NCBI GenBank assembly: GCA_008501785.1
Contig: QQUD01000068.1
Span: 1-5,902 of the forward strand
Source of the DNA: Chloroflexota bacterium
GTDB taxonomy: Bacteria; Chloroflexota; Anaerolineae; Promineifilales; Promineifilaceae
DNA: 5,902 nucleotides
Reading direction: 5' to 3'
The translations under genes were made by a program, and so were the position numbers. A model generated the notes under the pieces. It searched no databases, was not told the DNA's origin, and worked only from the letters and a program-made list of their open reading frames with translations. Below are positions 60 to 5,902 of the stretch, piece by piece (positions within the stretch are counted from its first letter, which is position 1; each line of letters opens with the position of its first letter).

Positions 60-506
60 TTATCCAACCAGTTGCGGCTCCACAATCGTTGACAGCAAAA
101 TCATGGTGCTGGTTTCACTCAATGCCGCAAACCGGTCGAGTAGGTTGTCGAGTTGGGTGATGGTGGAAACGGCCGTTTTCACCAAAAATGCCTTCTCTCC
201 CGTTACATTCACACACGCCACCACCTCGGTCTGCTGTTTCACAAACGCCACAAATGCAGCCTCTTGCCCGTGAAACACCTGCACCAGCACATACGCCGTA
301 ATCGGAAAGCCCATCGCCGCCGAGTCAACCTGCACCCGATACCCCGTAATAATTCCCGCCGACTCCATCTTGCGCACGCGCTCCGCTACCGCTGGCGCAG
401 ACAAATGCACCAGCTTCCCAATTTCCGCAAAAGAAAGCCGCGCATTCTCCCATAAATGTTGCAATATTTGCTGATTTATTTTGTCTATTTTGTGTTCCAT
501 CGTCAT
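60..506 (-). CDS. Lrp/AsnC-family transcriptional regulator
   Basis: A 148-residue protein with the usual Lrp/AsnC length and two-part layout. Residues 5-60 form the N-terminal winged helix-turn-helix: the stretch RLSFAEIGKLVHLS, then a recognition helix around residues 36-47 (APAVAERVRKME), then the typical GIITGY turn at 51-56. Residues about 65-145 fit the RAM (ligand-binding/oligomerisation) domain, including the VTGEKAFLV segment where the family usually has a VxGxxD-like motif. Family knowledge: such proteins form dimers to octamers, bind small effectors (mostly amino acids) and often control themselves and a divergent gene. Here the divergent neighbour is an amino acid enzyme operon, so a local regulator of that operon is the natural inference. 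Start: ATG at 506 is preceded by AAAGGA about ten bases upstream on the minus strand; a second in-frame ATG two codons later is possible. The effector cannot be told from sequence. A perfect AACGGCCGTT palindrome lies inside the gene at 168-177. Confidence 0.93.
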   Translation of the reverse strand: MTMEHKIDKINQQILQHLWENARLSFAEIGKLVHLSAPAVAERVRKMESAGIITGYRVQVDSAAMGFPITAYVLVQVFHGQEAAFVAFVKQQTEVVACVNVTGEKAFLVKTAVSTITQLDNLLDRFAALSETSTMILLSTIVEPQLVG

Positions 507-552
507 TTAGCCGCCATCCTTTGCAATCGAAACCATTTTGTGCCAAAAACCT

Positions 553-582
553 TCGACAACCTCTGCCGCATTGCGCCATAAT
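553..582 (+). promoter_or_regulatory. candidate promoter of the aminotransferase operon
   Basis: TCGACA (553-558) and CATAAT (577-582) are separated by 18 bases, each one mismatch from the sigma-70 consensus. A start near 590 would give a leader of about 155 bases that includes both 15-bp dyads (673-728), so a regulator bound there would act as a roadblock or the RNA could fold as an attenuator. A promoter nearer the gene cannot be excluded. Confidence 0.3.
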
Positions 583-587
583 TGGAT

Positions 588-616
588 AAGATACAGAGGA
601 TGTTTTCAAATGGCAA
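588..616 (-). promoter_or_regulatory. candidate promoter of the Lrp-type gene
   Basis: On the minus strand TTGCCA (616-611) and TATCTT (593-588) are separated by 17 bases. They match the sigma-70 consensus hexamers at 5/6 and 4/6 positions. Transcription would start near 581 and give a leader of about 75 bases before the ATG at 506. This is read by eye only; the -10 element sits next to the candidate plus-strand -10. Confidence 0.35.
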
Positions 617-672
617 GAGAGTATTTCAGCAATTCAGCCAAATGCTAACAAGCTGAGATCGCACATGAAACC

Positions 673-728
673 ATCTTCCCGGAAGTTATTCGAGATAAGC
701 GTTAGTCATAAAAAACTTCCGGGAAGAT
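673..728. promoter_or_regulatory. paired 15-bp dyads: probable operator pair or leader hairpin
   Basis: ATCTTCCCGGAAGTT (673-687) and AACTTCCGGGAAGAT (714-728) are perfect reverse complements, separated by 26 bases. Each arm is itself a near-perfect dyad: CTTCC and GGAAG around a single central base. The centres at 680 and 721 are 41 bp apart, close to four helical turns. Two same-face dyads of 15 bp suit an Lrp/AsnC-type oligomer (these proteins are known for about 15-bp dyad sites), and the gene for one diverges from this region. In RNA the same sequence would form a 15-bp stem followed by TTATTTTT (728-735), which resembles an attenuator or terminator just before the AGGAG ribosome site at 737-741. 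The repeats are certain; which role applies is inference. Confidence 0.6.
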
Positions 729-746
729 TATTTTTCAGGAGATTCA

Positions 747-1877
747 ATGACCACTTTTCAACCTTTTGTAATGGAACGTATGATGTCTCTCTTCGAGCAG
801 GATGTTGAATACAATTTGTCTGAAAGCGGTGTGCATCCGATGCTGCTGCGCGAATTGTTGGCGGACAATCCCGACATCATGAACAACTTACTCGACACCG
901 ACATCAACTATCCGCACGTCAACGGCAATCCCGTGCTGCGCCAAAACATTGCGGCAATGTACGATGGCGCAACGGCCGAAAACGTGCTCGTCACCGTGGG
1001 CGCAATTGAAGCAAATTACATCACCACGCGCACGCTGCTGGCTCCCGGTGACGAGATTGTGATGATGCTGCCCAATTACATGCAAATTTGGGGCATTGCA
1101 CGCAATCATGGGCTGTCTATCAAGACGTTTAACCTGCGCGAAGATCAGGGATGGGCACCGGATTTGGACGAGTTGGAAACGGCCGTTACCTCCCGCACCA
1201 AACTCATCGCTATCTGCAACCCGAACAACCCCACCGGCCGCATCATGACCGCAGCCGAAATGGACGCCGTTATTGCCATTGCGGACAAAGTTGGCGCGTG
1301 GATTTTGTCAGATGAGGTGTATAGTGGCGCGGAACGTTTTACAGATGAACAGACGCCTTCGTTTTACGGCCGTTATCCCAAAGTGGTGGCGATGGGCAGC
1401 ATGAGCAAAGCCTACGGCCTGCCTGGATTGCGCATCGGCTGGGCAGTGGCTCCCACCGATACCATCGACGACATTTGGGCACGACACGAATACACAACGA
1501 TTAGCGCCACCATGCTGTCCAACAAGCTGGCCGCCCTCGCGCTGTCTCCCGAAGTGCGCCCTCGTATTTTGCAGCGCACCCGCAGCTACATCCGAAACGG
1601 GTATCCGGTGCTGCAGGAATGGATGGACAGCCATCAAAACACGTTCTCGCTGACGCCGCCTGGAGCCGCCGCTATCGCCTTTGTGCGCTATCATCTGGAC
1701 ATCAATTCCACCACATTCACCGACCGGCTGCGAGAGGAAAAAAGTACGCTGATCGTCCCCGGCGACCATTTTGGTATGGATCGGTTTGTTCGTATAAGCT
1801 TTGGCTTGCCGCACAATTATTTGCTTGCCGCGCTCGACCGAATTCATGACTTGATTGTAGAATTACAACAATCGTAG
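747..1877 (+). CDS. class I/II aminotransferase-fold PLP enzyme
   Basis: A 376-residue fold-type I PLP enzyme of the AspAT superfamily. Visible landmarks: NPNNPTG at 158-164 with the PLP-binding Asn161; SDEVY at 188-192 giving Asp189 (pyridine nitrogen) and Tyr192; SMSKAYGLPGLRIGW with the Schiff-base Lys221; and FVRISFG with Arg349 in the place of the carboxylate-binding arginine. The N-terminal motif NLSESGVHP (23-31) is not typical of generic aminotransferases. From memory it resembles capreomycidine synthase (VioD) and the oxygen-using arginine oxidase/hydroxylase group (MppP, RohP), which are similar in length. That resemblance is unverified, so transamination itself is not assured. Start: ATG at 747 has AGGAG at 737-741. 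It heads the operon, with 41 bases to the dehydratase, and diverges from the Lrp-type gene. Its stop codon lies inside a hairpin repeat (1874-1902). One perfect AACGGCCGTT copy lies at 1178. Confidence 0.92.
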   Translation: MTTFQPFVMERMMSLFEQDVEYNLSESGVHPMLLRELLADNPDIMNNLLDTDINYPHVNGNPVLRQNIAAMYDGATAENVLVTVGAIEANYITTRTLLAPGDEIVMMLPNYMQIWGIARNHGLSIKTFNLREDQGWAPDLDELETAVTSRTKLIAICNPNNPTGRIMTAAEMDAVIAIADKVGAWILSDEVYSGAERFTDEQTPSFYGRYPKVVAMGSMSKAYGLPGLRIGWAVAPTDTIDDIWARHEYTTISATMLSNKLAALALSPEVRPRILQRTRSYIRNGYPVLQEWMDSHQNTFSLTPPGAAAIAFVRYHLDINSTTFTDRLREEKSTLIVPGDHFGMDRFVRISFGLPHNYLLAALDRIHDLIVELQQS

Positions 1878-1902
1878 AGGTGCCCCGCTGGGGCGTCTCT
1901 AC
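1874..1902. repeat. GTAGAG-type hairpin repeat overlapping a stop codon
   Basis: A 13-bp stem with a 3-base loop: GTAGAG (1874-1879) pairs with CTCTAC (1897-1902), two G-T wobbles follow, then GCCCC (1882-1886) pairs with GGGGC (1890-1894) around GCT. The TAG stop of the aminotransferase (1875-1877) is part of the left arm. It resembles the short GTAGAGACG-class intergenic hairpins I know from Chloroflexota and cyanobacteria. There is no T-run, so a factor-independent terminator is unlikely; it may modulate expression or RNA stability between the two genes. Confidence 0.7.
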
Positions 1903-1918
1903 AGCAAAGGGATATTTT

Positions 1919-2875
1919 ATGACTTTTAATCCGACTCAAATGGTGAATGAAGCGGTGGAGCGAATACGGCCGTTTCTGCGTCAAACAATTCTCGATGCAG
2001 CACCCGCGTACAGTCAGCGCACGGGTGCGGAGGTTTATTTTAAATGTGAAAATTTGCAGCACACCGGTTCGTTTAAAGCGCGGGGCGCACTCAACAAAAT
2101 TTTGTCGCTGGATGAGGGTGAACGGGCGCGTGGGATTGTGACAGCTTCGACGGGCAATCACGGGGCGGCATGTGCGTTTGCGATGCAGCAGGTGGGGGCC
2201 AGTGGGATTGTGTTTGTGCCGGAAACGGCCGTTCCCACCAAACTTGCTGCCATTCGCCGCCTCGGAGCCGACATCCGCACCTTTGGCACCGACAGCATCG
2301 AAACCGAAGCGCACGCCCGCACCTTCGCCACCGAAAATGGCATGACCTATGTGCCGCCCTACAACGACCCATTTGTGATTGCGGGGCAGGGTACAATCGC
2401 GGCCGAATTGTTGCACCAGCTGCCCGAACTCGATGCCGTTTTTGTCTCTGTGGGCGGCGGCGGGCTAATTGGTGGCATCGCTTCCTTTTTGAAAGCAGTC
2501 AAGCCATCCGTGCAGGTGATTGGCTGTTCACCCGAAAACTCACAGGTGATGGCGCAATCTGTTGCTGCTGGTGAACTGCTCGATTTGCCTTCGCTGCCCA
2601 CACTATCAGACGGTACGGCAGGTGGGGTTGAGCCAGGGTCTATTACTTTTCCGCTTTGCCGTGACCATGTAGACCAATACATTTCTGTCACCGAAGCAGA
2701 AATTGCCACCAGTTTGCGTGAATTTATGGGGAATCAGCACATGCTGATTGAAGGGTCGGCGGCGGTGGCGATTGCGGCTTTTTTGAAAACGGCCGTTTCT
2801 TTCAAAGGACAGCGTGTTGCTATTGTGTTGTGTGGGGCGAATATTAGTTTGGATACGTTGAAGGTGATATTGTGA
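1919..2875 (+). CDS. threonine/serine dehydratase-like PLP enzyme (EutB-like)
   Basis: A 318-residue fold-type II PLP enzyme of the threonine dehydratase/serine racemase family, expected to catalyse beta-elimination (or racemisation) of a hydroxy-amino acid. Landmarks: GSFKARGA with Schiff-base Lys53; STGNHG at 77-82, where Asn80 contacts PLP; PPYNDP and GQGTIAAEL at 146-164; the phosphate-binding glycine loop GGGGL at 179-183; and LCGAN near the C-terminus, with Cys305 where relatives have Ser or Cys near the pyridine nitrogen. There is no ACT or other regulatory domain, so this is the short catabolic form rather than biosynthetic IlvA. Start: ATG at 1919 has AAAGGG at 1906-1911; an upstream in-frame GTG at 1880 lies inside a hairpin repeat and would add 13 unconserved residues. 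Its proximity to a cyclodeaminase-family gene recalls the EutB/EutC pair of hydroxyectoine use, but other substrates are equally possible. AACGGCCGTT occurs at 2224 and 2788. Confidence 0.92.
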   Translation: MTFNPTQMVNEAVERIRPFLRQTILDAAPAYSQRTGAEVYFKCENLQHTGSFKARGALNKILSLDEGERARGIVTASTGNHGAACAFAMQQVGASGIVFVPETAVPTKLAAIRRLGADIRTFGTDSIETEAHARTFATENGMTYVPPYNDPFVIAGQGTIAAELLHQLPELDAVFVSVGGGGLIGGIASFLKAVKPSVQVIGCSPENSQVMAQSVAAGELLDLPSLPTLSDGTAGGVEPGSITFPLCRDHVDQYISVTEAEIATSLREFMGNQHMLIEGSAAVAIAAFLKTAVSFKGQRVAIVLCGANISLDTLKVIL

Positions 2876-2885
2876 AGCCAATTTT

Positions 2886-3121
2886 GCTGAGGGCTGATGG
2901 CGATTAAAAATTTATTTCGGTAATAGGTTTGGTAGGGGCGAGGTGGTGGAGAAAGGCATTGGCAGAAGCAAATGACCTTGTCTCGCCACCGCCTCGCCCG
3001 AAATTGCGGCAATCAGGGCGAGGCAATCAGAGAGAAGGCCCTTTGCTAGGTCAAGATCGTGGCCGATTGCCTAGCCCCTACTATTACTGGTTTATTTTAT
3101 GAATTTTCATAAGCCCTCAGC
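2886..3121. repeat. MITE-like long imperfect inverted repeat
   Basis: The two ends of this stretch match each other in inverted orientation over about 50 bases. GCTGAGGGCT (2886-2895) is the exact complement of 3112-3121, GTAATAG (2920-2926) of 3081-3087, and GTAGGGGCGAGG (2932-2943) matches 3070-3081 at 11 of 12 positions, with AT-rich, weakly matching DNA between blocks. The core is the two-hairpin element at 2932-3081. It begins about ten bases after the dehydratase stop. There is no coding capacity and no clear target duplication, so a non-autonomous mobile element (MITE) is a plausible reading but not proven. The right end also holds a 16-bp AT-rich dyad at 3097-3112 (TTATGAA and TTCATAA around TT). 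Confidence 0.55.
2932..3081. repeat. two-hairpin intergenic repeat, copy A
   Basis: Hairpin 1 pairs 2936-2952 with 2981-2999 (GGGCGAGGTGGTGG-type arm, one wobble and a bulge or two). Hairpin 2 pairs 3016-3028 with 3065-3077 (GGGCGAGGCAATC, 12 of 13). Both left arms begin with GGGCGAGG, and the element ends CCTAGCCCCTAC (3070-3081), which closes against its own left end. Copy B at 4192-4340 has the same plan, with arm positions offset by at most one base but different arm interiors. No gene is seen in the surrounding 2876-3246 gap. Confidence 0.75.
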
Positions 3122-3206
3122 TACGAGGTGGACGGCCCGTTGGGCCTGAAGAGGTCTTAGCCCTGAAAGGGCTTCGATCTCGTAGGTGGGGCGTTTACGC
3201 CTCACC
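3111..3206. other. multi-helix structured cluster upstream of the cyclodeaminase-family gene
   Basis: Several short inverted repeats nest here. CTACGAGGT (3121-3129) pairs with 3177-3185 (one wobble) and encloses two tight hairpins: GGCCC-GTT-GGGCC (3134-3146) and AGCCCT-GAA-AGGGCT (3159-3173). A third hairpin follows directly, GGTGGGGCG-TTTA-CGCCTCACC (3185-3206, 9 bp with one wobble). AAGCCCT at 3111-3117 could instead pair with AGGGCTT at 3168-3174, giving an alternative fold. It ends 40 bases before the ATG at 3247. It could be a structured leader of that gene or a REP-like genomic repeat; there is no tRNA signature and I recognise no riboswitch class. Confidence 0.5.
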
Positions 3207-3246
3207 GAATTTTCGACCGAAACATTCACATGTTTAAAGGGTAATC

Positions 3247-4185
3247 ATGAAAATCATAACGCTCGATCAAATCAAAGCTGCCTTGCCTTCGCTGGACTTA
3301 TTTCCGGCTATTGAAGAAGGGTTTCGCAAATATTCTGCGGGGCAGGCCGTGGTCCCGCCTGTTGGAGAATTGTTGCTAGAAAAAGGTGAAGTACATATCA
3401 AATATGGTTATATCCAGAAAGATGATTATTATGTCATCAAGATAGCGTCTGGTTTTTACGACAATCCACAGTTAGGACTATCTTCTAGCAACGGCATGAT
3501 GTTGTTGTTTCGTCAGCAAACGGGACAGGCAGAAGCGATTTTGCTAGATGAGGGGCATTTAACAAATATTCGAACGGCCGTTGCTGGTGCAATCGCGGCC
3601 AAATATCTGGCCCCTAGCCAGGTGAAGCGGATTGGCATTGTTGGCGCAGGCATTCAGGCTCGCCTGCAGCTAGGTTATTTGCAAGATATTACGCCCTGTC
3701 GAGATGTGTTGGTTTGGGGATTGAGTGAGGTAGAGCTAAAAGCCTATCAGAATGAGATGACGCCGTTGGGTTTTCGGGTGGAGGTGACGAGAGAAACGGC
3801 CGTTATCCAACAAACCTGCAACCTAATCGTGACCACCACCCCATCCGATACGCCATTGCTCCACGCATCCGACCTGCAACCAGGCACACACATCACCGCT
3901 GTCGGCAGCGACACGCCGCACAAACAAGAGCTAGACGCGCACATCCTGGCACGTGCAAATGTGGTGGTGGCGGACAGCATCCCGCAATGTTTGGCACGCG
4001 GTGAAATTTATCAGGCGATTCAGGCAGGATTGTTGACGCAGGATCGGTTGGTTGAGTTGGGGAATGTGATTGGTGGGGTGAGTAACGGCCGTTCCCATGA
4101 CACCCAAATCACAGTTGCCGATTTAACAGGCGTGGCTGTACAGGACATTGGCATTGCAACGGCCGTTTACACTGCCACACCATAA
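3247..4185 (+). CDS. ornithine cyclodeaminase/mu-crystallin family enzyme (EutC-like)
   Basis: A 312-residue member of the OCD/mu-crystallin family: NAD(P)-dependent enzymes including ornithine cyclodeaminase, alanine dehydrogenase, ketimine reductases and EutC. The substrate-binding half carries YVIKIASGF (Lys65, at the position of the catalytic-site lysine) and LTNIRTAVAGAIAAKYL (Arg109, carboxylate binding). The Rossmann half begins with IGIVGAGIQA (129-138), the dinucleotide loop GxGxxA. AVGSDTPHKQELD (218-230) holds Asp222, matching the catalytic aspartate of P. putida OCD, and the C-terminus has the usual ITVADLTGVAVQDIGIA. All key residues appear intact, so it should be active; the reaction cannot be chosen from sequence. 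Start: ATG at 3247 with AAAGGG at 3236-3241. It lies 371 bases after the dehydratase, so it may have its own promoter despite the shared theme. It holds four perfect AACGGCCGTT copies (3573, 3795, 4084, 4158), the densest in the window. Confidence 0.93.
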   Translation: MKIITLDQIKAALPSLDLFPAIEEGFRKYSAGQAVVPPVGELLLEKGEVHIKYGYIQKDDYYVIKIASGFYDNPQLGLSSSNGMMLLFRQQTGQAEAILLDEGHLTNIRTAVAGAIAAKYLAPSQVKRIGIVGAGIQARLQLGYLQDITPCRDVLVWGLSEVELKAYQNEMTPLGFRVEVTRETAVIQQTCNLIVTTTPSDTPLLHASDLQPGTHITAVGSDTPHKQELDAHILARANVVVADSIPQCLARGEIYQAIQAGLLTQDRLVELGNVIGGVSNGRSHDTQITVADLTGVAVQDIGIATAVYTATP

Positions 4186-4191
4186 CCTGTC

Positions 4192-4340
4192 GTACGGGCG
4201 GGATGGCGCGGCAATACCTTATCAAAACAAAAAACCTCATCTCCGCGCCACCTCGCCCTTCTTGTCCAGCAAACGGGCGAGGTAGGCGGGAGAAAAGGTT
4301 TTCGTTTAGCAAAATAAGTACCCGCCTACCTAGCCCCTAC
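4192..4340. repeat. two-hairpin intergenic repeat, copy B
   Basis: The same architecture as copy A (2932-3081), nearly equal in length. Hairpin 1 pairs 4196-4211 with 4243-4258 (GGGCGGGATGGCGCGG arm, 14 of 16). Hairpin 2 pairs 4275-4290 with 4321-4336 (GGGCGAGGTAGGCGGG arm, 15 of 16). The right end, CCTAGCCCCTAC at 4329-4340, is identical to copy A. Loops are about 30 bases with no T-run. CATAACCTG (4181-4189, overlapping the cyclodeaminase stop codon) and CATACCTG (4341-4348) flank it closely and might be a degenerate target duplication. Confidence 0.75.
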
Positions 4341-4436
4341 CATACCTGCATCGCTTTTCCATCCTCACCTTGCATAATCCTCACAATTCCCGCATACTAA
4401 TTCCAATCTTGGTCACCGAAAATTGAAAATCAATCC

Positions 4437-5902
4437 ATGAAAAACGACACATTTTTCACCGTACCTTTCCCGCGTAATACATATTTTGTGGGGCGTGAGG
4501 CTGAACTAGACGCCTTGCACAACGCCCTCACCGCCAATGGACAAGGGCAGGTAGGCATCAACCCTGCAGGCTTAACCGGCATGGGCGGCATTGGCAAAAC
4601 GCAGCTCGCCGTTGAGTATTGCTACCGCGCCCTTGCCGCAGCACATTTCCCCGATGGCATCTTTTGGCTCAACGCCGCCTTTCCCCTGCGCGAAGAATTT
4701 AGCAAATTAGGGCAAAAGCTAATCGGGTTAGATGGCCTGTTGTTGCCACAAATGCAAATGCGGAAGCTGTTAGTGAAATATTTCAATATCAGCGAGTTGC
4801 AAGACCTGTGTTTGGAGTTGGGTGTCAATCATGAAGAAATAGCAGGCCACAACGACACGATCAGTTCGTTTGCACGGGGATTGATTCAATTTTGTCAACA
4901 ACGTAACCGTTTGCCTGAGTTGTTGAATCACTGCTTCCAAAATCGCCCCAAAGTTATGTGGCCGAAGCCGTGGGAAGATGAGCCTGAACAAACCCGTTCG
5001 CAAGATGATTGGATTGGTGCGGCATTTGACTATTTGCAGGCACACCCAAACAGCTTGCTGGTGTTAGACAACCTGCCAGACCCGCTGACGCTAACGCAAT
5101 CGCTGGGGCGAGAGTGGGTTCCAGCGAACCTGCCAGGGGCACTGATGTTTACGACACGCAGCGGTGAACTGTACCATTTTACGCCAGTGCCGCTGAAAGT
5201 ATTGCCAGAGGATGCGGCGTTGAAGCTATTGCTGCGGCACCCGGCACGCCAGTCATTTCAACAGGCAGAGTACCCAGAGCATGAAACGGCCCGTGAAATT
5301 TGCCAGATGGTTGGCTACTTGCCGCTGGCACTGGAGGTGGCGGGGGCGCAGTTGGGTGCCAGACCGGCGTTGAAACTGGCAGCATACCGGCGCACCTTGC
5401 ACAAGCAGGGTGCGCTACCGGTAATCGAAAATAAAAGGTTACCGGTACAAACGGCGCATGAGACGGGCTTGCAGGCAGTTTTGATGGAGCAGTGGGCGCA
5501 GCTTCCGAGTGATGAAGCGCGGCTGCTGCTGCGAGTCGCGGCAGCGTTTGAGGAAGCAGCACAACTTCCGGCAGCCCGGCTAGGGCTGATGGCAGGCTTA
5601 CCGGATGAAGCAGAGGACTTTTTTGAAGATATAACGCTGGCGGAGACGCTCCGGCAGTTGGTAGCGGCGTCTCTGTTGGAGTTGTTGGATAAGCAAGTAA
5701 TGCAGGCTTCGGATGATAATGAAGCCATTGAATATCAGGATATGCGGTTGATGATTCGTCTGCATCCTTTGGTGCGGGAGTTTACAATGCAACAGCCCCC
5801 TTTCTCGGGACCGCTTCCCGGAGTGGACACGAAAGAGATAGGGCTGTTTTGTGCGCGGAATTTGATTGATGCGTATGAGAATTTTGCGGTACTGGAGCGG
5901 CA
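4437..5902 (+). CDS. STAND NTPase (NB-ARC type) with internal effector-associated-type domain, 3' end cut by window
   Basis: The open frame runs from ATG 4437 to the window edge (488 codons seen, no stop). N-terminal FVGREAELDAL (17-27) is the usual lead-in. Walker A is GMGGIGKT (48-55, Lys54), Walker B LLVLD (207-211), sensor-like GALMFTTRS (234-242), the GLPLAL-type motif GYLPLALEVAG (293-303), then a winged-helix region ending RLHPLVREF (441-449), an MHD-like site. Between Walker A and B, residues about 104-176 are a helical insert (RKLLVKYFNISELQDLCLEL, then a run ending RLPELLNHCFQNRP). It resembles the effector-associated/bacterial death-like domains of conflict systems, which recruit effectors by like-with-like contacts. 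Repeats such as TPR are expected beyond the edge but not seen. An in-frame TAA at 4398 leaves ATG 4437 as the only sensible start, although no good ribosome site precedes it. A role in defence or signalling is inferred from family only. Confidence 0.87.
   Translation, partial: MKNDTFFTVPFPRNTYFVGREAELDALHNALTANGQGQVGINPAGLTGMGGIGKTQLAVEYCYRALAAAHFPDGIFWLNAAFPLREEFSKLGQKLIGLDGLLLPQMQMRKLLVKYFNISELQDLCLELGVNHEEIAGHNDTISSFARGLIQFCQQRNRLPELLNHCFQNRPKVMWPKPWEDEPEQTRSQDDWIGAAFDYLQAHPNSLLVLDNLPDPLTLTQSLGREWVPANLPGALMFTTRSGELYHFTPVPLKVLPEDAALKLLLRHPARQSFQQAEYPEHETAREICQMVGYLPLALEVAGAQLGARPALKLAAYRRTLHKQGALPVIENKRLPVQTAHETGLQAVLMEQWAQLPSDEARLLLRVAAAFEEAAQLPAARLGLMAGLPDEAEDFFEDITLAETLRQLVAASLLELLDKQVMQASDDNEAIEYQDMRLMIRLHPLVREFTMQQPPFSGPLPGVDTKEIGLFCARNLIDAYENFAVLER

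Follow-up and report, generated by a model that had tools for sequence, protein, structure and literature searches.

Iterated palindromes in the window

Four genes of the window, by which we mean the whole 5.9-kb stretch of DNA analyzed, carry copies or variants of one palindromic word. The features are as follows, with the palindromes given without strand.

60..506, minus strand: Lrp/AsnC-type regulator gene (Pfam PF13404, PF01037), with copy 1
168..177: AACGGCCGTT copy 1, read as KTAV, in the regulator gene on the minus strand
747..1877, plus strand: class I/II aminotransferase gene (Pfam PF00155), with copy 2 and one variant
973..978: CGGCCG flanked by A..A (AACGGCCGAA), an incomplete site
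1178..1187: AACGGCCGTT copy 2, ETAV, in the aminotransferase gene
1235..1240: CGGCCG flanked by C..C, an incomplete site
1365..1374: TACGGCCGTT, one-base variant with an outermost position changed, in the aminotransferase gene
1919..2875, plus strand: PALP-family PLP enzyme gene (Pfam PF00291), with copies 3 and 4 and one variant
1965..1974: TACGGCCGTT, one-base variant with an outermost position changed, in the PALP gene
2224..2233: AACGGCCGTT copy 3, ETAV, in the PALP gene
2400..2405: CGGCCG flanked by G..A, an incomplete site
2788..2797: AACGGCCGTT copy 4, KTAV, in the PALP gene
3247..4185, plus strand: ornithine cyclodeaminase/mu-crystallin family (OCD) gene (Pfam PF02423), with copies 5 to 8
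3573..3582: AACGGCCGTT copy 5, RTAV, in the OCD gene
3795..3804: AACGGCCGTT copy 6, ETAV, in the OCD gene
4084..4093: AACGGCCGTT copy 7, other frame, NGRS, in the OCD gene
4158..4167: AACGGCCGTT copy 8, ATAV, in the OCD gene

The original prediction counted eight perfect copies of AACGGCCGTT and two one-base variants where fewer than one was expected, and this count holds: ten matches with at most one mismatch are present against 0.26 expected, and none of 200 shuffled windows contained at least ten. CGGCCG itself occurs 13 times, ten of these as ACGGCCGT. All eight perfect copies lie inside open reading frames (ORFs): copy 1 is in the Lrp/AsnC gene on the minus strand, and the remaining seven are spread over three genes of the plus strand that belong to other families. 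Seven are read as x-T-A-V and one as N-G-R, in agreement with the earlier claim of unrelated families, both gene orientations, and more than one frame.

That seven of the eight copies share the T-A-V frame might point to chance, to a codon or amino acid bias toward Thr-Ala-Val, or to an artifact of a repeat family. Against this stand the surroundings of the copies, which differ from copy to copy, and the outcome of synonymous codon shuffling, which gave a mean of 0.10 and a maximum of 1 AACGGCCGTT copy in the window genes (n = 40) and returned only 1/45 of the observed count in the relative G421, where sites also occupy other frames and intergenic DNA. Such an explanation has virtually no chance of being correct, being refuted by the codon shuffles together with the site conservation and the frozen codons described below.

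Abundance and conservation in related genomes

The genome-wide counts are those of relatives of the window, the nearest of which is 67% identical to it in DNA. Within one order of Chloroflexota, probably Promineifilales, AACGGCCGTT reaches up to 5,060 copies per genome; it is otherwise rare among 400 Chloroflexota genomes. A reversed control word was found 7 times against 5,060 in G421 (6.2 Mb), 12 times against 4,045 in G439, and 7 times against 2,503 in G420 (3.0 Mb). Likewise, CGGCCG outnumbered GCCGGC by 21,019 to 132 in G419, 13,814 to 51 in G452, and 22,240 to 1,218 in G002. The reversed GCCGGC is mostly a useful control but forms the core of the word of G431 (TGCCGGCA), and we relied instead on Markov and codon-shuffle nulls, which the counts in the relatives far exceed. 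Genome-wide counts near expectation, which the original prediction had named as its own refutation, were thus not what the relatives yielded, and its view of a genome-wide iterated palindrome resembling HIP1 was borne out in them.

In a 181.7-kb sample of G421, 192 copies of AACGGCCGTT were present where 0.48 were expected, corresponding to 1,057 per Mb (1,244 per Mb for ACGGCCGT). This density and the counts in the relatives agree with Elhai's definition of a HIP as a palindrome over-represented genome-wide at 500 to 2,500 copies per Mb. ORFs hold 159 of the 192 sites in this sample, which is 86% coding, in frames used 116, 33, and 10 times, and intergenic DNA has sites too. HIP elements lie in coding DNA and are not bound to one protein motif or frame, and the frame usage in G421 conforms to this. 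The mean spacing of the octamer and decamer words is 0.5 to 0.9 kb and mildly even, with 3 of 1,000 pooled random placements being equally even.

Selection on the DNA itself, as originally proposed, is evident in the relatives from three kinds of comparison. Under a codon-shuffle null that preserves both protein sequence and codon use, sites in ORFs numbered 159 against 3.5 in G421, 65 against 5.7 in G414, 46 against 2.8 in G418, 40 against 3.0 in G452, and 184 against 21.9 in G002. Individual sites also resist divergence: 88 of 104 were unbroken in a relative at 77.9% identity (control, 18.2%), as were 35 of 42 at 80.2%, 19 of 19 at 94.3%, and 14 of 20 at 70.6% (control, 13%). Between G438 and G439, column identity was 0.95 to 0.98 across exactly 8 bp and 0.66 to 0.88 in the 10 flanking bases on each side. 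Finally, codons within sites were identical in 177 of 182 cases (93.8 expected), 71 of 73 (40.6 expected), and 34 of 36 (16.6 expected). A codon-pair bias for Thr-Ala-Val, the other ground on which the prediction was to fall, is ruled out by the enrichment in other frames and by conservation of the site codons far beyond that of the same codons elsewhere. We therefore regard AACGGCCGTT as almost certainly a HIP-type element maintained at the DNA level.

The near-misses have a distinct profile. Beside the 192 perfect sites in the G421 sample there were 38 one-base variants, 30 of them changed at position 1 or 10 and 8 at one of the inner eight, the outermost positions being the most variable, as in HIPs. 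In a masked ORF test, end variants were raised in four of five octamer or decamer genomes, the exception being G452. Inner one-base near-misses stayed near background level despite the many perfect sites. Conceivably, the word has no function and is written at every near-miss by mutation or repair, for instance through biased gene conversion or very-short-patch repair. The scarcity of inner near-misses beside many perfect sites is in its favor, as is the ratchet that Elhai's methylation-directed repair model yields, according to the available part of PMC4390886. However, Vsr-type repair of deaminated cytosine clears one kind of near-miss, a pattern not seen at the small counts at hand. The process would also have to fix codons across 20 to 30% divergence, and the spacing is more even than random. 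We consider this account improbable.

Dialects and candidate methyltransferases

The symmetric flanks of the word are lineage specific within the order, which uses ACGGCCGT/AACGGCCGTT, TCGGCCGA, GCGGCCGC, plain CGGCCG, and, in G431, TGCCGGCA. The window word is one dialect of this broader family with a CGGCCG core. When A-dialect sites were aligned to genomes of other dialects (blastn, E of 1e-15, lenient scoring, with one place counted against several genomes), the T word stood opposite them in 0 of 159 alignments, compared with 12 of 95 for the G word. Plain genomes retained the core in 47 of 174 alignments, and G424, G425, and G432 in 5 of 281 (controls, 0.05 to 0.12). These alignment counts suggest separate places of origin for A and T sites and a partial overlap of A, G, and plain sites.

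Dialects bear on two further explanations. In one, the word serves as a signal for DNA uptake, with competent cells favoring DNA that bears it and transformation raising its copy number. Uptake sequences, the Neisseriaceae DUS included, are not known to be palindromic, and the near-perfect sharpness and the freezing of single sites would appear to exceed what a graded uptake preference needs. The thousands of conserved copies, the dialects per lineage, and the presence of the word on phage contigs as well would nonetheless suit such a signal, and DUS dialects are known (PMC3630211, as far as its available text goes). On balance, we think uptake unlikely. In the other, the word is the binding site of a dimeric nucleoid, segregation, or replication protein, each site being locally important and hence conserved, and the methyltransferases considered below are bystanders. 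The perfect dyad symmetry, the local conservation of individual sites, and the even spacing are all in line with this, and the word occurs in genomes, G449 and G456 among them, that lack both a PF00145 match and a strong PF01555 match. Yet the flank preference of such a protein must shift repeatedly (A, T, G, or none) inside one order, and in G431 even the core must shift (TGCCGGCA); Elhai used the same argument from changing words against a protein reader of HIP1 (in the available part of PMC4390886). A search confined to methyltransferase families turned up no candidate for such a protein. A binding protein is a possibility to which we give limited weight, though more than to uptake.

Neither methyltransferase family tracks the word by itself. 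PF00145 is present in 26 of 56 genomes and missing from the word-rich G420, G422, G427, G430, G439 to G442, and G449, while 45 of 56 genomes have PF01555 matches above the cut-off, some of them in many copies, and the family is weak or absent in G416, G437, G449, G002, and G456. Two particular enzymes were set against the word. MTase-H, a DUF1156-like PF01555 enzyme of about 660 amino acids (aa), is present in 29 of the 31 genomes with an octamer word and in 14 of the 25 others in the order (Fisher p of 0.0013, kinship ignored). Of the 400 genomes drawn from the phylum, only 2 outside the order gave matches above 800 bits, G149 and G379, which have 1 and 0 decamers. MTase-H is insufficient for the word because these two genomes and the 14 non-octamer genomes of the order have it. 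Conversely, G449 and G450 have a strong ACGGCCGT without a notable MTase-H match, G449 having no PF00145 match and a weak PF01555 match. MTase-C, a C5 enzyme, exceeds 680 bits only in G002, G003, G419, and G384 among the 56 genomes. The first three belong to the six plain-CGGCCG genomes; the others, G004, G455, and G456, do without it, and in G456 neither PF00145 nor PF01555 gives a match at an E value of 0.001. In G384, MTase-H and MTase-C are both present and the CGGCCG excess is merely 1.7-fold. The boundary between plain and loose genomes is our own choice, CGGCCG exceeding its codon-shuffle count 3.8-fold in G456 (plain) and 3.3- and 3.1-fold in G005 and G458 (loose, with MTase-H). Judged from gene content, the link between methyltransferase and word is a correlation with exceptions.

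MTase-H is a predicted DNA methyltransferase of the PF01555 superfamily, two copies scoring 55.1 and 53.6 bits against a curated cut-off of 26.7, with DPMMGGGTT early and TDPPY late in the sequence. The DPPY motif is usual for adenine methyltransferases; CGGCCG and GCGGCCGC contain no adenine. The DUF1156 match is weak and below cut-off. DUF1156-like DNA methyltransferases are presumably those of COG1743. The best NCBIfam match is NF042963 (PADLOC DUF1156_MTase), and assignment to DUF1156_antiphage on this model was rejected at 75.5 and 71.3 bits against a cut-off of 1000. A fold search gave local matches only, to CcrM and other methyltransferases, with a query TM of at most 0.16 among the matches listed. 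At three MTase-H loci, the one side read (about 1.3 kb each) had P450-like, unnamed, and dihydrouridine-synthase-like genes, as judged by eye. Among the aligned MTase-H copies, no residues tracking the A, T, or G dialect were found: at the columns that the A dialect conserves, the two T-dialect copies have 4 identical changes in common, within the range of 0 to 7 seen between other pairs. In a tree of 37 of 45 rows, from which sequences shorter than 400 aa and a 607-aa paralogue of G426 were excluded, dialect labels cluster, with 4 changes against a shuffled mean of 12.0, for which kinship alone is enough; the T copy of G418 sits on a long branch. In G436, also of the T dialect, MTase-H is split over two reading frames and the word is still strong.

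A possible role and comparison with known systems

Of the causes first suggested, a site linked to a methyltransferase has the most support, as a candidate cause. We propose that an orphan (solitary) DNA methyltransferase would act on each site, MTase-H serving the octamer dialects and MTase-C some of the plain-CGGCCG genomes. This step is tentative, and we place it slightly short of an even chance, to which we had put it before, because enzyme-bearing genomes without a strong word are more numerous than first allowed for. Once methylated, the sites would act in a local chromosomal function needing one site per 0.5 to 1 kb, near-misses would be cleared by selection or directed repair, and a dialect would change when its enzyme did. 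The most plausible role would be to mark the parental strand in repair or in the control of replication, after Elhai's proposal for HIP1; a role in repair is speculative. Taken as a whole, a HIP-type element that is an orphan-methyltransferase target with a local chromosomal function is the explanation we cautiously favor.

Some phage contigs contain ACGGCCGT. It might be imagined that the palindrome is a chromosome-wide mark of self made by an order-specific orphan methyltransferase, its dialect read every 0.5 to 1 kb and mimicked by phages of these hosts in their own genes, those for portal and terminase included, in order to pass as self. If so, dialect shifts would be barriers between lineages. 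We hold this idea to be unlikely.

Among the literature matches listed (preprints and most subscription papers lying outside), no description of the decamer, the octamers, or CGGCCG with Chloroflexi as an iterated word appears, and HIP1 is treated as cyanobacterial (PMC4390886 included, in its available part). HIP1 is an unsolved puzzle, of which the Chloroflexota case offers an independent example in another phylum, with several dialects in one order, switches between relatives, and visible constraint on single sites. Since this independent case combines dialects, sharp conservation, switches, and named relatives, the question of who reads and writes highly iterated palindromes becomes testable, by long-read methylation and by enzyme presence against dialect. 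One named relative, Ca. Leptofilum, is known from wastewater treatment plants (PMC10746286, available part).

Several known systems share features with the word. MTase-H has PF01555 motifs in common with the DUF1156-like methyltransferases of NF042963 and differs in its length of about 660 aa against a model of 960 positions. Two dialects, CGGCCG and GCGGCCGC, are identical to the type II restriction sites of EagI and NotI. The Chloroflexota words are enriched instead of avoided. Hosts generally show avoidance of restriction sites (PMC4687349, as far as available). The palindromic form separates the word from DUS, which is not known to be palindromic. Many conserved copies and lineage-specific dialects are shared with the DUS of Neisseriaceae (PMC3630211, available text).

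The closest parallel is HIP1. Identity with HIP1 itself was rejected, since GCGATCGC occurs 0 times in the G421 sample, the word differs, and the relatives are Chloroflexi and not cyanobacteria. In the available part of PMC4390886, HIP1 (GCGATCGC) and the alternate HIPs are short GC-rich cyanobacterial palindromes at about 500 to 2,500 copies per Mb, whose dialects (GCGATCGC, TCGATCGA, GGGATCCC, GGCGCC) replace each other; deviation from HIP1 is greatest at the outermost positions, and a link to an orphan methyltransferase is made without proof. The Chloroflexota word resembles HIP1 in each of these respects, being a GC-rich palindrome of like density with mutually replacing dialects, end-position deviation, and a putative methyltransferase link. 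It differs in its phylum, in its core of CGGCCG (once GCCGGC), in its extension to a 10-mer in some genomes, in a candidate enzyme of another family, and in its occurrence on phage contigs. Moreover, inner one-base variants are rare in the Chloroflexota word, whereas one-base variants are common in many cyanobacteria (PMC4390886, same part).

The iterated word in the window and in related Chloroflexota

The window carries eight copies of the decamer AACGGCCGTT and two of its variant TACGGCCGTT, where 0.26 are expected at up to one mismatch; the eight perfect and two one-base variant copies of the original prediction were thus recovered, far above expectation. Ten of the 13 CGGCCG in the window are part of the octamer ACGGCCGT, and synonymous codon shuffling of the window genes leaves a mean of 0.10 copies of AACGGCCGTT. 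Pfam assigns five genes to the 5902 bases:

Lrp/AsnC regulator, minus strand
Class I/II aminotransferase
PALP-family enzyme
Ornithine cyclodeaminase/mu-crystallin family (OCD) enzyme
4437-5902, EAD7/NB-ARC protein, open-ended at the right end

The first four lie side by side (60-4185) in an arrangement that we take to resemble ectoine-degradation clusters (eutB, eutC, and an AsnC regulator). The EAD7/NB-ARC gene contains no CGGCCG, none being present in the window beyond 4160, and differs in this from the four metabolic genes. Its acquisition may be recent, in which case site content could provide a clock for horizontal transfer. The intergenic stretches 2904-3110 and 4186-4345 gave short matches (65-98% identity) to many genomes of the order (e.g., G423, G426, G435, G434, and G384) and hence seem part of dispersed intergenic repeats.

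Relatives were sought by alignment of OCD-family proteins, and of 80 loci taken from named genomes, five (L006, L027, L040, L043, and L062), all titled Chloroflexi bacterium, had more CGGCCG than their G+C content would suggest. In the whole genomes of these five, CGGCCG counts rise to 22,240 in G002 (L062), versus 1,218 of the reversed word. L021, a contig of 3424 bases titled Pseudomonadota, has 13 CGGCCG in 3.4 kb at 53% G+C and is either mislabelled or from a further lineage that has the word. Among 400 evenly drawn Chloroflexota genomes, AACGGCCGTT occurred 122 times in G002, 22 times in G156, and 18 times in G384, the latter two belonging to the same order as G002, and at most 13 times in every other genome. 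Across the 56 genomes of this order, the highest counts were 5,060, 4,045, 3,823, and 3,716, with controls of 6-12, so that the predicted genome-wide iteration does hold in relatives; some genomes of the order show no excess. The best alignment of the window itself was to G001, a member of this order (67% identity). The order is probably Promineifilales, since two close homologues of one G439 methyltransferase (86 and 85% identical) are named Candidatus Leptofilum, which NCBI places there.

Constraint on the DNA

A 181.7-kb sample of genome G421 contained 192 AACGGCCGTT where a second-order Markov model predicts 0.48, and its ORFs held 159 versus 3.5 after synonymous codon shuffling. The shuffling test gave 65 versus 5.7 in G414, 61 versus 7.0 in G438, and 13 versus 0.3 in G420, and likewise 46 versus 2.8 for TCGGCCGA in G418, 40 versus 3.0 for GCGGCCGC in G452, and 184 versus 21.9 (G002) and 114 versus 17.0 (G419) for plain CGGCCG, that is, without strong flank preference. 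Sites occupy all three reading frames, and 33 of the 192 in G421 fall outside ORFs, matching 86% coding.

Single sites are conserved between genomes; comparisons drawn from the same clade are mutually nonindependent. Along 55.8 kb of G438 and G439 (77.9% identity), 88 of 104 ACGGCCGT sites in the former and 88 of 96 in the latter were perfect in the partner, against 18.2% of G+C-matched windows. The sites of the first genome were kept in 35 of 42 cases for G438/G437 (80.2% identity), 18 of 20 for G438/G440 (88.7%), 32 of 33 for G437/G439 (82.9%), 19 of 19 for G441/G442 (94.3%), and, pooled over five pairs among G414-G417 at 82-87% identity, 57 of 64, with controls of 0.22-0.62 for these nine pairs. 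Pairs at about 70% identity kept 14 of 20, 11 of 20, and 7 of 10 (controls, 13-14%). In four pairs among G437-G440, column identity was 0.94-1.0 over exactly eight bases and dropped just outside. Considering only codons with an unchanged amino acid, and taking the same codons outside sites as expectation, 177 of 182 codons inside G438/G439 sites were identical versus 93.8 predicted (CGT, 34 of 34 versus 40% outside); four other comparisons gave 71 of 73 (40.6 predicted), 36 of 36 (27.7), 32 of 33 (22.9), and 34 of 36 (16.6). The excess over codon shuffles, the use of all frames, and the frozen codons inside sites bear out in relatives the proposal that selection acts on the DNA, and the word is a DNA-level feature.

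Beside its 192 perfect words, the G421 sample had 38 one-base variants; 30 deviated at one end or the other of the decamer and only 8 at one of its eight inner positions. When perfect sites were masked and ORF counts compared with codon shuffles, the following near-misses were found.

Near-misses in ORFs, observed/shuffled
Genome: inner positions; end positions
G421: 8/3.9; 29/1.5
G414: 6/9.1; 14/5.7
G438: 6/11.1; 21/8.5
G418: 9/8.0; 12/4.0
G452: 8/6.4; 2/2.1

All near-misses of plain CGGCCG amounted to 72 versus 91.5 in G419 (AGGCCG, 0 versus 9.8) and 185 versus 171.9 in G002; in the octamer genomes, where counts are small, no single substitution type stood out as absent. Sites that have lost one of the inner bases are therefore seldom encountered, which implies strong selection or directed restoration. 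That a writing process lays down the word without any function is a less likely alternative.

On average, octamer and decamer words lay 0.54-0.89 kb apart, and plain CGGCCG 0.27 kb apart in G002 and 0.16 kb apart in G419. The variance/mean ratio of counts in 2-kb windows was 0.51-0.74 in seven octamer/decamer samples, 1.04 in G414, and 1.06 and 2.10 in plain genomes. Pooled over six octamer/decamer genomes, 3 of 1000 random placements were as even (6 of 1000 when G002 was added); individually, only G421 fell below 0.05 (0.019).

Dialects within the order and in viral contigs

Typing covered all 56 genomes and used samples of between about 5 and 182 kb of DNA per genome, some of them small. The ACGGCCGT dialect was found in 28, with preference for an additional A at -2 ranging from none (G412-G417) to 78% (G420 and G421). 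TCGGCCGA characterizes G418 (61 versus 1.2) and G436 (42 versus 2.0), and GCGGCCGC G452 (71 versus 1.7). CGGCCG is plain in G002, G003, G004, G419, G455, and G456, and 1.4-3.3 times codon shuffles in a loose group (G384, G443-G447, G156, G005, and G458), the boundary being our own, with G456, classed as plain, at 3.8 times. The ratio was 1.8 in G460 (small count); no clear excess was seen in G424, G425, and G459, and G432 was low (7 versus 13.9), in a comparison that left out G448, G453, G454, and G457. G431 (loci L305 and L348) has a different core, TGCCGGCA, with 14 copies versus 0.4 in 11.2 kb and, in ORFs, 13 versus 0.68 after codon shuffling, in agreement with 7,315 GCCGGC versus 447 CGGCCG genome-wide. 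In alignments of low identity that count places repeatedly, A-dialect sites coincided with T-dialect sites in 0 of 159 cases and, above controls, with G-dialect sites in 12 of 95 and plain cores in 47 of 174.

Screening IMG/VR for pairs of ACGGCCGT lying within 30 bases returned at least 120 stretches, and 11 of 80 loci among the matches listed carried at least eight ACGGCCGT. Contig L427, with a portal-like gene and weak terminase matches, has 14 in 7.1 kb (nine full decamers), 4 and 5 of the octamers being within the portal-like and terminase-matching genes, respectively; L414 encodes large and small terminase subunits, and each of these two genes holds one of its 18 copies in 9.3 kb. Their ORFs held 10 versus 0.58 and 11 versus 0.94 after codon shuffling. 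L416, L367, and L379 are denser (44-49 in 13-15 kb), their viral nature being less clear from the proteins scanned. Together, these metagenomic viral contigs range from about 2 to 3.7 ACGGCCGT per kb.

Candidate methyltransferases and the likeness to HIP1

C5 methyltransferases (PF00145) were found in 26 of the 56 genomes and are absent from many word-rich ones. Weak PF01555 matches in G439, G422, and G416 identified one conserved protein of about 660 residues, MTase-H, with methylase motifs and a weak DUF1156 match. A confident structure prediction for a protein with 98% identity to MTase-H of G439 (P0121; mean pLDDT, 87.5) has CcrM as its best local PDB match. Of the 46 order genomes that gave a match at E 0.001, 43 contain MTase-H, either intact, truncated at a contig end, or fragmented; three matches no stronger than 8.9e-6 (G431, G450, and G457) were set aside. 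In G436, where the T-dialect word is strong, MTase-H spans two overlapping frames on a long contig (L337, G436:C1:576001-580500), which reflects a genuine frameshift or else a mistake in the assembly. A cytochrome P450-like ORF, recognized by eye, lies directly downstream in G439 (L252, 171-1355); the neighbours in G422 and G416 differ.

MTase-H occurs in 29 of 31 octamer genomes versus 14 of 25 others (Fisher P = 0.0013, ignoring kinship). Profiling of the 56 genomes found it neither in the six plain genomes nor in G425, G431, or G432. Nor was it found in the word-rich G449 and G450, which counts against it as the writer. The 400-genome sample gave at least 15 matches at 1e-30, a lower bound with up to three candidates scored per genome, and at least four genomes above 800 bits: G156 and G384 inside the order, and G149 and G379 outside it, with one and no AACGGCCGTT, respectively. 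Another candidate group is of the C5 type (MTase-C; 66-75% identity to the copy in G002) and exceeds 680 bits only in G002, G003, G419, and G384, remaining matches reaching at most 232 bits. The first three are plain-CGGCCG genomes without MTase-H; G384 has both enzymes, yet its CGGCCG excess is only 1.7-fold. Methyltransferase targeting, with these enzymes as candidates, is the best-supported mechanism, although we propose it tentatively and would put it at slightly less than even; a binding-protein site and an uptake signal are less likely alternatives.

In conclusion, the word is real and genome-wide in relatives and under strong DNA-level constraint. The counts, codon nulls, and conserved sites vindicate its earlier likening to HIP1, the cyanobacterial highly iterated palindrome (HIP), and we regard it as almost certainly a HIP-type element. 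We count it as previously undescribed because no description of the word or its dialects was found in the literature among the matches listed; it would be a second HIP system, located beyond the cyanobacteria and apparently independent, whose dialects extend across the order. Elhai (PMC4390886) described a matching methyltransferase appearing together with HIP1 and its alternates. The Chloroflexota words and their candidate methyltransferases, of putative specificity and with real exceptions, resemble this.
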